DNA from: Croceibacter atlanticus HTCC2559
GTDB lineage: Bacteria; Bacteroidota; Bacteroidia; Flavobacteriales; Flavobacteriaceae
Direction: 5' to 3'
DNA length: 64,000 nucleotides
Assembly (NCBI RefSeq): GCF_000196315.1
Contig: NC_014230.1
Span: forward strand, 1,178,001-1,242,000
Within the stretch, counting starts at the first letter, position 1. Every line of letters begins with the position of its first letter. The notes beneath the pieces were generated by a model. The model did not search any database, had not been told where the DNA came from, and saw only the letters and a list, made by a program, of their open reading frames with translations. The translations under genes and the position numbers were made by a program. Of this stretch, positions 10,992 to 25,789 are shown one piece after another.

Positions 10992-12434
10992 TTAAATTTC
11001 TCTATTAGTATCAAACTGCTCCAAATTATCAGCTATCTTCTTTAAGAAGCTTCCGCCAAGAAAACCATCCACTATGCGATGGTCAAAGGATAATGACAAG
11101 TACATCATCGAACGGATTTCGATAGTATCATTACCGTCTTTTGTAATAACTTCTGGTCGCTTTTTGATAATTCCAGTAGCTAGAATCGCCGCTTCCGGTT
11201 GGTTAATGATTGGTGTTCCCATCACACTACCAAAAGTTCCCACATTACTTATCGTAAATGTGCTTCCTTTTATGTCATCGCCACCAAGTTTGTTTTCTCT
11301 GGCGAGATTCGCCATTCGATTAACGTCTGTAGCGAGTTCCTGTAAGTTCTTTTTATCTGCATCTTTCACAACCGGAACGATAAGGTTCCCACTTGGTAAA
11401 GCGGTTGCCATACCAACGTTGATATGTTCTTTAACGATGATGTTCCTCCCATCAACAGACACATTAATCATTGGAAACTCGGTAATCGCATTGGCGACAG
11501 CTTCAACAAATAATGGCGTAAACGTAAGTTTCTCGCCATACGTTTCCTGAAATTTTACCTTGTTTGCGTTTCTCCAATTCACAATATCAGTCATATCAGC
11601 TTCAACATAAGCTGTTACGTGTGGCGACGTATGTTTGCTATACACCATATGGTCTGCAATCATACTGCGCATACGATCCATCTCGACAATCTTGCCAGTA
11701 CCTTTATCCAATTTCAACTGCGGAATTGTGTACGGTTTTGGTTGCTCAACAGCTGGTTGTTCTTTTAAGACTTTTAATTCTGCTAAAGTCTCGTTTAATT
11801 CCTGACCCAATTGCATCATTTGTTGACCGATACTTTCGAACTGTGAACCTATATCGCCAGAGATTCCTGCCTTCGCAGGAATGACAGAGAATTGATAAGG
11901 TCTTCCAGCATCTATATATTTAAAAACATCACTTTTTCGTAATCGGCCATCATTTCCTGTTGCTTCGATTCGAGCCAATTCTTCAAATGAGATATGATGT
12001 TCTTTGGCGATTGAAATGACTAGAGGCGAATAGAATGTATTATTCTGAATGCCTACTGAAGCGGTTTTTTGAAGAGGTTTTTTAGCTGACGATTTTGATG
12101 AAGCTTCAACTTTAATTGATGGTTTTGAGCTAGCTTCTTTTTCTTTCGACTTCAAGTTCGATTTCGATTTCTCTTCAGATTTAGAACCCGAAGAACCTTC
12201 TTCAAGTATTGCAATCTCAGAACCTACCGCAACAACATCATTAGCCTGAGCTTTGTGAGAAATCATAACACCCGAAAATGGTGCAGGCACTTCATTATCT
12301 ACTTTGTCTGTAGCAATTTCAACTAAAATATCACCTTCTTCAAAAGCATCACCTTCTTGAACCACCCAATTTATGATAGTACCTTCTGTAATACTTTCGC
12401 CCATTTTAGGGACTTTAAATGCAGTCTCGCTCAT
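10992..12434 (-). CDS. dihydrolipoyl acyltransferase (E2) of the branched-chain complex
   Basis: From the ATG at 12434 the protein is 480 residues; a TTG seven codons upstream is less likely because MSETAFKVPKMGES is the normal E2 beginning. It has one lipoyl domain (EIATDKVDNEVPAPFSG), an E3-binding domain (YSPLVISIAKEHHISFEELA...GRLRKSDVFKYI) and the catalytic domain ending in SFDHRIVDGFLGG. The linker between the last two contains SVIPAKAGIS, which is encoded by a palindromic repeat (11862-11885) read in frame. It transfers acyl groups to CoA with the fused E1 and is divergent from an Lrp-type regulator. Confidence 0.93.
   Translation of the reverse strand: MSETAFKVPKMGESITEGTIINWVVQEGDAFEEGDILVEIATDKVDNEVPAPFSGVMISHKAQANDVVAVGSEIAILEEGSSGSKSEEKSKSNLKSKEKEASSKPSIKVEASSKSSAKKPLQKTASVGIQNNTFYSPLVISIAKEHHISFEELARIEATGNDGRLRKSDVFKYIDAGRPYQFSVIPAKAGISGDIGSQFESIGQQMMQLGQELNETLAELKVLKEQPAVEQPKPYTIPQLKLDKGTGKIVEMDRMRSMIADHMVYSKHTSPHVTAYVEADMTDIVNWRNANKVKFQETYGEKLTFTPLFVEAVANAITEFPMINVSVDGRNIIVKEHINVGMATALPSGNLIVPVVKDADKKNLQELATDVNRMANLARENKLGGDDIKGSTFTISNVGTFGSVMGTPIINQPEAAILATGIIKKRPEVITKDGNDTIEIRSMMYLSLSFDHRIVDGFLGGSFLKKIADNLEQFDTNREI
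11862..11885. repeat. type B palindrome inside the E2 coding region
   Basis: Arms ATTCCTGC and GCAGGAAT around a four-base loop, followed by GAC so that the reverse strand begins with GTCATTCC. It is in frame in the E2 gene and encodes VIPAKAGIS within the flexible linker before the catalytic domain. Confidence 0.9.
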
Positions 12435-20155: not shown

Positions 20156-20160
20156 TTTAT

Positions 20161-20196
20161 GAATTTGAAACTGAAATCGAATTTGAAATCGAAGAC
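20161..20196. repeat. solitary hexamer array (GAAnnn)
   Basis: Six consecutive six-base units all start with GAA (gaattt gaaact gaaatc, then gaattt gaaatc gaagac). It occupies the thiolase-peptidase spacer just upstream of the thiolase start. The same hexamer pattern flanks the S23-like gene at 25103, but here there is no gene. Confidence 0.75.
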
Positions 20197-23803: not shown

Positions 23804-24309
23804 TAGGTTAAACATTTAAAATAGTCGAACGGCTCTTGGCAATCGTCACATTTAAACATTGCTTTGCAAGCCGTTGAGCCAAACTGACTTACCAAATGTG
23901 TGTTCGTACTTCCGCAGTTTGTGCATTTTACAATCTTGGCATTTCCTAGTAACGCAGCTTTATCTGCTGTGGCGTCCATTGGTGGCGCGATGCCGTACTC
24001 TTCGAGTTTTCTCTTGCCATTCTCGCTCATCCAATCTGTGGTCCAAGCAGGAGAAAGAATCAATTTTACTTTTGATTTATAACCGGCTTCTGTCAATGCT
24101 TTTTCAATGTCGTCACCAATAACATCCATTGCTGGACAACCGCTATATGTTGGTGTGATTTTTACTGAAACTTTTCCGTCGTCTTCAAAATCTGCATAAC
24201 GAACAACACCTAAATCTAAAATTGAAAGCACTGGAACTTCAGGATCGGAAACCGACTCTAGAATGTCTATAAGTTTTTTGTTGATATGTGGTTGCTGCTC
24301 GGCTACCAT
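23803..24309 (-). CDS. paaD: phenylacetyl-CoA epoxidase maturation protein PaaD
   Basis: The 168-residue protein has the MIP18/DUF59 fold (SVSDPEVPVLSILDLGVVRYAD, and TPTYSGCPAMDVIG) and a C-terminal zinc-type cluster (CTNCGSTNTHLVSQFG, then CDDCQEPFDYFKC). PaaD is thought to help assemble the iron centre of the epoxidase. It overlaps paaC by a few bases, so translation is likely coupled. A type B palindrome touches its stop codon. Confidence 0.93.
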   Translation of the reverse strand: MVAEQQPHINKKLIDILESVSDPEVPVLSILDLGVVRYADFEDDGKVSVKITPTYSGCPAMDVIGDDIEKALTEAGYKSKVKLILSPAWTTDWMSENGKRKLEEYGIAPPMDATADKAALLGNAKIVKCTNCGSTNTHLVSQFGSTACKAMFKCDDCQEPFDYFKCLT

Positions 24310-25058
24310 TTCATATTAGGATAGGTGCGTTGCATATATTGCATATCGCTTAATAGATAACCAAGATGTTCTGTATGAATACCTTCTTTGCCACCTTTTT
24401 GCCAGTATTTACTTTCAGGGATTTCGATAGTTGCTTCTTTTAGAAGATTCTCAACGCGATTGTAATAGGTATCTTTTAGTTTTGAAACATCTACACCAAT
24501 ACCAGCTTCAGCAGCTTCTTTGTCTGCTTCAGTCATCATAAATAATTCATTGGTATAACCCCAAAGATTATTCACGGCTTCCTGAATTTTATTATGGCTT
24601 TCTTCAGTTCCATCGCCTAAACGTTTCATCCAATCTCCAGAAAATCGCACGTGATAACTTACTTCTTTAATTCCCTTTTTAGCGATTGCAGCTAAGTTTT
24701 CATCTTTACTATTCTGAAGTTCTTGCATTTGTAAAATGTGGAAAACATCAAACAAATACTGTCTTGCGATGACGTAAGCGAAATCGCGATTTGGTTGCTC
24801 AACCAAAAGCACATTTTTATACTCACGTTCTTTTCTGAGGAATGCGAAATCATCTTCAGTTTTGTCCTCTTCAGATAAATCGGCTGCGTATTGGTAGTAG
24901 CCACGAACTTGTCCGAACAAGTCTAATGAGATGTTAGTGCAAGCGATATCTGTCTCTAAGCTTGGTCCATGACCAGTTAAAGTTCCTAGGCGTTGCCCAA
25001 GGATGAGTGAGTTATCGGCGATGCCAAGGATATAATTTATTAAAGTTTGATTGCTCAT
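24303..25058 (-). CDS. paaC: phenylacetyl-CoA epoxidase structural subunit PaaC
   Basis: The 251-residue ferritin-like helical protein (MSNQTLINYILGIADNSLIL, LGQRLGTLTGHGP) matches PaaC, the structural partner of PaaA in the epoxidase that makes ring-1,2-epoxyphenylacetyl-CoA. PaaC lacks catalytic iron but stabilises the complex. It is separated from paaB by the S23 cassette; in other bacteria paaB and paaC are normally adjacent. Confidence 0.93.
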   Translation of the reverse strand: MSNQTLINYILGIADNSLILGQRLGTLTGHGPSLETDIACTNISLDLFGQVRGYYQYAADLSEEDKTEDDFAFLRKEREYKNVLLVEQPNRDFAYVIARQYLFDVFHILQMQELQNSKDENLAAIAKKGIKEVSYHVRFSGDWMKRLGDGTEESHNKIQEAVNNLWGYTNELFMMTEADKEAAEAGIGVDVSKLKDTYYNRVENLLKEATIEIPESKYWQKGGKEGIHTEHLGYLLSDMQYMQRTYPNMKW

Positions 25059-25063
25059 AGTTT

Positions 25064-25099
25064 TGAAATTGAACTCGAACTTGAAAATGAACTTGAAAT
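25064..25099. repeat. hexamer array, left arm flanking the S23-like gene
   Basis: Six hexamers of form nGAAnn (tgaaat tgaact cgaact, then tgaaaa tgaact tgaaat). Bases 25063-25087 are the inverted complement of 25457-25481 with one mismatch in 25, so the two arrays can pair in the transcript. Confidence 0.85.
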
Positions 25100-25102
25100 A
25101 GT

Positions 25103-25450
25103 TCAGTCCAAATTTTTAATTCGAGTTACTATAATTCTTATAAGTTGGTCATTTTCATCAACTAAAGGTGATGCCTGTTTTTCTGAAATAAGATTAGCTT
25201 TAAACTGAATATTTAAGTTTCTCAAACTCTCTCTTAATTCCTTTAAAACTATCCTTAGTTTATTGATTTTGTCTTTTTGTGTTCCAGCACCTAGTGCTTC
25301 TCCATAATTAAGAGCAGAAGAACAAGCTGACCGAATTAATTGTTTTGCAAGATATTCTCTAGCAAATGACACTGGTTTTTTATCATAAAGCTGAACTATT
25401 TCTGCAGCAAAATCTTCTAGGCGTTCACTTAAATCATATTTCTTTTCCAT
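25103..25450 (-). CDS. four-helix-bundle protein, S23/IVS type
   Basis: The 115-residue helical protein (MEKKYDLSERLEDFAAEIV, AREYLAKQLIRSACSSALNY, KINKLRIVLKELRESLRNL) belongs to the small four-helix-bundle family first seen in intervening sequences of bacterial 23S rRNA. Its molecular function is not known. It sits between paaB and paaC and is flanked on both sides by inverted hexamer arrays, which is very like the layout of an rRNA intervening sequence (open frame inside a stem), but in an mRNA-coding operon. Confidence 0.9.
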   Translation of the reverse strand: MEKKYDLSERLEDFAAEIVQLYDKKPVSFAREYLAKQLIRSACSSALNYGEALGAGTQKDKINKLRIVLKELRESLRNLNIQFKANLISEKQASPLVDENDQLIRIIVTRIKNLD

Positions 25451-25456
25451 ATAGCC

Positions 25457-25492
25457 TTTTCAATTTCGAGTTCAATTTCAAGTTCAGTTTTC
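25457..25492. repeat. hexamer array, right arm flanking the S23-like gene
   Basis: Units ttttca atttcg agttca, then atttca agttca gttttc, the complement of the left arm. It lies between the S23-like gene's start and the paaB stop. Confidence 0.85.
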
Positions 25493-25498
25493 GTCAGC

Positions 25499-25789
25499 TT
25501 ACATATGCTTCACGTCGTCTGGTAAATCGTAAAATGTTGGATGACGGTACACTTTGTCTTGTGCTGGCTCGAATAGCTCACCATTATTATCTGGATTAGA
25601 CGCTGTAATGTGTTGACTCTCTACAACCCAAATGCTTACGCCTTCGCTACGCCTTGTGTAAACATCACGCGCATTTGCTAAAGCCATTTCTGCATCTGCT
25701 GCGTGAAGGCTTCCAAAGTGACGGTGTTCTAATCCATTTTTACTTCTCACGAAGATTTCCCAAACGGGCCAATTTTTCTTAGTGCTCAT
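25499..25789 (-). CDS. paaB: phenylacetyl-CoA epoxidase subunit PaaB
   Basis: The 96-residue protein (MSTKKNWPVWEIFVRSKNGL, SLHAADAEMALANARDVYTRR) is PaaB, a small subunit of the multicomponent epoxidase. It is only four bases from paaA. PaaB is required for activity but lacks redox cofactors. Identity rests on length, conserved WEIFVRSKNGL motif and operon position. Confidence 0.93.
   Translation of the reverse strand: MSTKKNWPVWEIFVRSKNGLEHRHFGSLHAADAEMALANARDVYTRRSEGVSIWVVESQHITASNPDNNGELFEPAQDKVYRHPTFYDLPDDVKHM

Follow-up and report, generated by a model that had tools for sequence, protein, structure and literature searches.

S23 proteins are encoded in intervening sequences (IVSs) of 23S rRNA, whose ends pair and which are removed by RNase III. 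In these IVSs S23 has been an orphan for three decades, and in flavobacterial genomes, which may carry up to 18 copies, its genes are annotated only as 'four helix bundle protein'. The helix 45 IVS of Coxiella burnetii has a 28-bp terminal stem that is cut by RNase III, and ahead of its S23 ORF lie tandem heptamers (GACAGAT) that were treated as strain variation (PMC4990558). The S23p protein of Xanthomonas has been described as a homopentameric torus (PMC4990558), and in F. columnare an S23 gene separates gmk from nadD (PMC5524665), occupying an operon spacer as at the locus described here. A search of open-access journal papers found no link between S23 genes and flanking word arrays in operons.

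The window is the whole stretch of DNA that was analysed, 64,000 nt of Croceibacter atlanticus HTCC2559. Like an rRNA IVS, the locus has an S23 ORF enclosed by terminal inverted repeats of comparable length that are able to pair, but it lies outside the 23S rRNA gene, between the protein genes paaB and paaC of an operon with the minus-strand order paaA, paaB, S23, paaC, paaD. The features of interest are:

25499 to 25789, minus strand: paaB, the upstream host gene (TIGR02157, E = 6e-45)
25457 to 25490, minus strand: 5' arm, upstream of the gene, with five GAA words (25459-25485) at 6-nt spacing, from word and inverted-repeat search
25103 to 25450, minus strand: S23-family ORF, 115 aa (TIGR02436 / PF05635 and a predicted four-helix bundle)
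25063 to 25099, plus strand, read inwards: 3' arm, downstream of the gene, with six GAA words (25065-25097) at 6-nt spacing, inverted relative to the 5' arm
24303 to 25058, minus strand: paaC, the downstream host gene (TIGR02158, E = 1e-82)
20157 to 20193, plus strand: solo GAAnnn array with no S23 gene, a candidate relic of a lost cassette

The first-pass annotation had described an S23 gene placed between paaB and paaC and bracketed by inverted 25-base repeats with one mismatch, built of GAA hexamers, and this description was confirmed, the two neighbours by their family matches. The arm cores (25063-25087 and 25457-25481) are 25 nt long, 96% complementary with a single mismatch, and separated by 369 nt. 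In gene sense the 5' arm (CTGAACTTGAAATTGAACTCGAAATTGAAAAG) has five GAA words, and the 3' arm read inwards (TTGAAATTGAACTCGAACTTGAAAATGAACTTGAAAT) has six, in both cases at a spacing of exactly 6 nt; together the arms account for most of the sequence between the S23 ORF and its two neighbours. The sole ORF between the arms is the S23 gene (PF05635, E = 2e-13, 50.7 bits, cut-off 33.8; TIGR02436, E = 5e-21, 74.9 bits, cut-off 24). No transposase is present within the element, no enzyme able to move it was identified, and pattern and family searches found no second S23 gene in the 2.95-Mb genome.

By sequence and predicted fold the locus protein is a member of the S23 family. Its AlphaFold monomer model (pLDDT 94.4) is a four-helix bundle, for which the best PDB match was 2RLD (Bacteroides BT_0352; Z 18.1, rmsd 1.7 over 109 residues), with 2GSC (Xanthomonas XCC0516) at Z 16.7. 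Both share the fold and have five chains per entry, but arrays are not described for either in the papers that were found. The median dN/dS over 148 S23 pairs was 0.096, indicating purifying selection on the operon ORFs, whereas the ORF of rRNA IVSs is decaying.

The link between S23 genes and arrays is more general than the paaB-paaC locus. A paired-array test, which scores an identical 3-mer at identical spacing in both 100-nt flanks, gave a score of at least 6 for 85% of 196 S23 genes and for 7% of 275 other genes drawn from the same kinds of loci; the samples, chosen for their top scores, contain close relatives, and the percentages hold for these samples. Several of the few control matches were themselves paa-gene spacers with solo arrays. 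In 122 of 138 S23 elements the array score was above 99% of shuffles. S23 genes with inverted arrays are a recurring feature of mRNA operons, outside rRNA, in Bacteroidota, and the absence of flanking arrays from S23 genes of other flavobacteria, which the first-pass annotation had named as a point against its reading, did not emerge: most of those sampled have arrays. The repeat consists of a short word of 3-4 fixed and 2-4 loose bases, recurring every 6 nt (58 of the scored elements), 7 nt (90) or 8 nt (17). Genes of other S23 clades, sampled from the order, one S23-rich genus and the phylum, have words such as AGGTnnn, GGCTnnn, GATTnnn, CAATnnn and AAAGnnnn, among others.

The median number of words per arm is five (n = 165), but the mean falls from 5.4 to 4.5 and 3.9 for periods of 6, 7 and 8 nt, while the array span stays at 32.4, 31.8 and 31.1 nt, respectively. 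A constant span with a varying word number argues against a strict one-word-per-subunit rule, and a rule of five words for five subunits was rejected; the median of five is suggestive, and the constancy of the span is the more solid pattern. About 32 nt corresponds to approximately three turns of B-DNA and, by our own estimate, also roughly to the single strand needed to encircle a ring as large as S23. Read inwards, the words are G-rich at both ends (147 to 14).

The spacing of an array belongs to its S23 clade and does not follow the insertion site. Mapped on a 194-protein S23 tree, the period shows seven changes, where shuffled labels give a mean of 62.5 and a minimum of 55, and the anchor word changes 23 times, against at least 74 in shuffles. 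Among the paa elements alone the period changes once and the site nine times. One clade keeps GAA6 across paaA-B, paaB-C, paaC-D and greA-HIT, and the paaC-paaD spacer, represented by six elements only, holds three S23 clades with three words (GAA6, AAT7 and GAT7). Within a clade the words turn over (GAA, CAA, TAA, AAG) and the period stays at 6. Only 3-4 positions per repeat are conserved and the remainder is loose; the detection 3-mer is conserved by the test's own selection, so the observation is its contrast with the other repeat positions. A few fixed positions with a loose rest look like a word that is read, followed by a spacer, unlike the copying of whole units. Since the period tracks the protein family, a protein that reads the arrays is suggested, part of this link being explained by common descent, as arms and gene are inherited jointly. 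The arms accompany the gene when one clade occurs at different sites, which makes the cassette the unit.

Of the 54 S23 relatives that a scan of named genomes found, almost every one lies in a paa operon of Flavobacteriaceae, in genera that include Bizionia, Winogradskyella, Gelidibacter, Mesonia, Aequorivita and Psychroflexus. In the paa cluster S23 genes occur at paaA-B, paaB-C, paaC-D, paaF-H and after paaI, always in operon sense and with up to three copies per cluster. The clade of the present locus is also found in three Dokdonia-type loci (L134, L142 and L147), in the spacer upstream of a HIT-family gene; the gene upstream of S23 there, read by eye, is presumably greA. S23 genes are present in unrelated operons as well (fadB-A, metH, hemE-hemN and greA-HIT). 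Both neighbours were codirectional with S23 in 88 of the 92 loci with close neighbours, and both antisense in one, an orientation that makes S23 readable from the host transcript.

Decay is common, and includes single-base deletions, truncations and arms-only hairpins (L126, L087); L136 retains arms and filler with no S23, and L135 is a one-arm relic. The order's 30 best PaaB loci include six with S23 between paaB and paaC, one of these frameshifted; only the 3' end of S23 and its arm are left in L080, only the arms in L087, and 22 show no trace, with spacers of -4 to 153 nt. The spacers of filled and empty relatives were too diverged for alignment, and no target-site duplication was seen. Judged from the sequences compared, the paaB-paaC copy is an old insertion that was inherited across many genera and has repeatedly decayed, and no recent movement was seen among the compared loci. 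The first-pass annotation had proposed that a mobile element entered the paa operon. Mobility of the family is borne out by its several sites and its arms-only remnants, but the paaB-paaC copy is old and no recent transposition was caught. The combination of purifying selection and common decay suggests that the protein is useful in the long term, to the cassette or to the host, yet finally dispensable.

It is probable, in our assessment, that the locus carries a sense-oriented cassette that rides in operons, and that its ring protein would recognise the arrays around its own gene. The cassette comprises a gene for a four-helix-bundle protein, probably ring-forming, and two inverted word arrays, each of about 32 nt, and by sitting in sense between codirectional operon genes it can have its S23 read from the host transcript. 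The S23 ring would recognise the arrays that bracket its gene, their repeat spacing being set by the protein; the ligand would more likely be DNA or single strands than an RNA hairpin, and array binding could serve both upkeep and spread of the cassette. A wider proposal, that S23 rings read a protein-set word spacing, and that S23 with its arrays forms phylum-wide operon cassettes of Bacteroidota, with the IVSs of rRNA as the special case housed in 23S, is a serious but more tentative possibility. The GACAGAT heptamers of Coxiella look like the same architecture at 7-nt spacing within a real IVS, the word period at the paaB-paaC locus being 6.

The first-pass annotation had offered RNA-level excision or processing as the reason for the arms. 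In such an IVS-like element the arms would pair in the paa mRNA, in a stem of about 25-30 bp, RNase III would cut it, and the S23 segment would be freed and the polycistron split. The predicted transcript fold does pair the arms (24-bp terminal stem, -98 kcal/mol, z -3.2), S23 lies in operon sense, and the Coxiella IVS combines a stem cut by RNase III with heptamers before its S23 ORF (PMC4990558). In the whole set, and at paaB-C and paaF-H taken singly, arms are also more complementary to their own partner than to arms from elsewhere; at paaA-B they are not. If excision lacked religation it would part paaB from paaC, and in 20 sampled S23 loci there was neither an Rfam match nor rRNA. Among the mismatches between arms, in the first set G.U and A.C numbered 144 to 161, and in a larger set the G.U share was 0.41-0.44 under four alignment settings, in a wobble test that had no positive control. 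A.C mismatches are as frequent as G.U or more so, and pairing is thus not apparently maintained in RNA; the operon arms differ from those of an IVS in carrying no wobble signature of RNA pairing, at least in this uncontrolled test, and RNA pairing is disfavoured as what holds the two arms to the same sequence. The likeness of the arms would fit better with one reader of a shared word, or with correction at the DNA level, than with an RNA stem. As a description, the first-pass picture of an IVS-like cassette within an mRNA operon stands, but excision is unsupported as the reason for the arms, there being no G.U excess although the RNA can fold. The new point is that array spacing goes with the S23 clade; the cassette view holds, and RNA excision is weakened and now unlikely.

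TRAP, the trp RNA-binding attenuation protein, is a ring that reads short words at fixed spacing, and by analogy a domesticated S23 might bind the 5' arm of the paa mRNA and tune paaC or its own processing or translation. TRAP is, however, an unrelated protein whose gene is not flanked by inverted copies of its sites. Long retention between paaB and paaC, a dN/dS of about 0.1, spaced words together with a ring fold, and multiple S23 copies in a single paa operon would suit a domesticated regulator, but we consider it quite improbable given the frameshifts and truncations, the absence from paaB-paaC in relatives (22 of 30 without trace) and an RNA model that lacks wobble support; the occurrence of S23 in fadB-A, metH, hemE-hemN and greA-HIT further argues against a paa-specific role. 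A spread by reverse transcription, in which an Avd-like S23 would recruit a reverse transcriptase, is very improbable. After the S23 structures, the fold search next returned DGR Avd (4DWL, Z 13.2), including Avd in a reverse transcriptase ribonucleoprotein structure (8UB7, Z 13.5), scores that are near or below the chance level for helical bundles, aside from the sequence links in PMC10053308. Operon-sense orientation would agree with an RNA intermediate, but is explained by selection for expression too, and the reverse transcriptase family PF00078 has no match in this genome, which in this differs from DGR systems, or in 27 of the 55 genomes that carry eight or more S23 genes. With half of the S23-rich genomes lacking a match, a reverse transcriptase was rejected as a requirement. 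An origin of the arrays as simple repeats in AT-rich spacers, lying beside S23 by slippage or accident, is scarcely credible: the words are short and of low complexity, and arrays do occur at a few non-S23 genes and in the radA spacer, but both arms share word and spacing, only 3-4 positions per repeat are conserved rather than the whole unit, the period follows the S23 tree, and the shuffles and the 275 control genes (7%, against 85% at S23 genes) led to rejection of chance and slippage.

The preferred reading, an operon-riding S23 cassette with arrays recognised by its own protein, would add a kind of small cassette to the selfish elements of bacteria. Its inverted ends and its internally deleted, arms-only copies (L126, L136, L087) resemble those of MITEs and other short inverted-repeat elements, but the ends are quasi-repeats that vary by element, not a fixed terminal repeat, and, unlike MITEs, it has no transposase partner known to us; an autonomous DNA transposon or IS differs in having a transposase. 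The rule that spacing follows clade joins rRNA IVSs, the S23 genes of operon spacers and the Avd fold, and because it is measurable it turns the orphan S23 into a testable system of nucleic-acid recognition.

Solo arrays were also seen. The array at 20157-20193 lies in the same cluster, between a ypfJ-like peptidase gene and a thiolase gene, and is of the 3'-arm type for minus-strand genes. Elsewhere in this genome, five GAAnnn words directly follow the radA stop codon (C1:378543-378577; L032 1500-1535), with neither S23 nor a second arm beside them, and in 29 relatives the position after radA is free of arrays and of S23. Such solo arrays, with the relatives lacking both, suggest that arrays may arise or persist without the gene. 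In L141, L143, L148 and L161, 7-nt arrays stand on both sides of paaD with no adjoining S23 found, and are perhaps relics of two cassettes. An array near 12145 was rejected as a relic; by reading, it falls within the linker-coding part of a dihydrolipoamide acyltransferase-like gene.

In Bizionia paragorgiae, the S23 genes at paaA-B and paaB-C (L127 2995-3342 and 3766-4113) share 96.6% protein identity with a dS of 0.14. Their ORFs are alike and their arms unlike, as would follow from gene conversion confined to the ORF or from very fast arm turnover; recent transposition was rejected here, conversion of the ORF being as likely. S23 ORFs of different clades, with their own words, lie directly upstream of paaB in L020 (G022) and between paaC and paaD in L197 (G377). 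Several kinds of small element seem to settle in paa spacers. Between paaA and paaB of Winogradskyella eckloniae (L130 2245-2680), a short ORF that reads as GIY-YIG-nuclease-like replaces the S23 of relatives, and the S23-less paaB-paaC spacers of L068, L069, L071, L079 and L133 contain pieces of another repeat, 'TGTCATCCTGAACT...TTTCAGGATCT' and 'CACCTTGAGCGCAGTCGAAAGGTCTC'.
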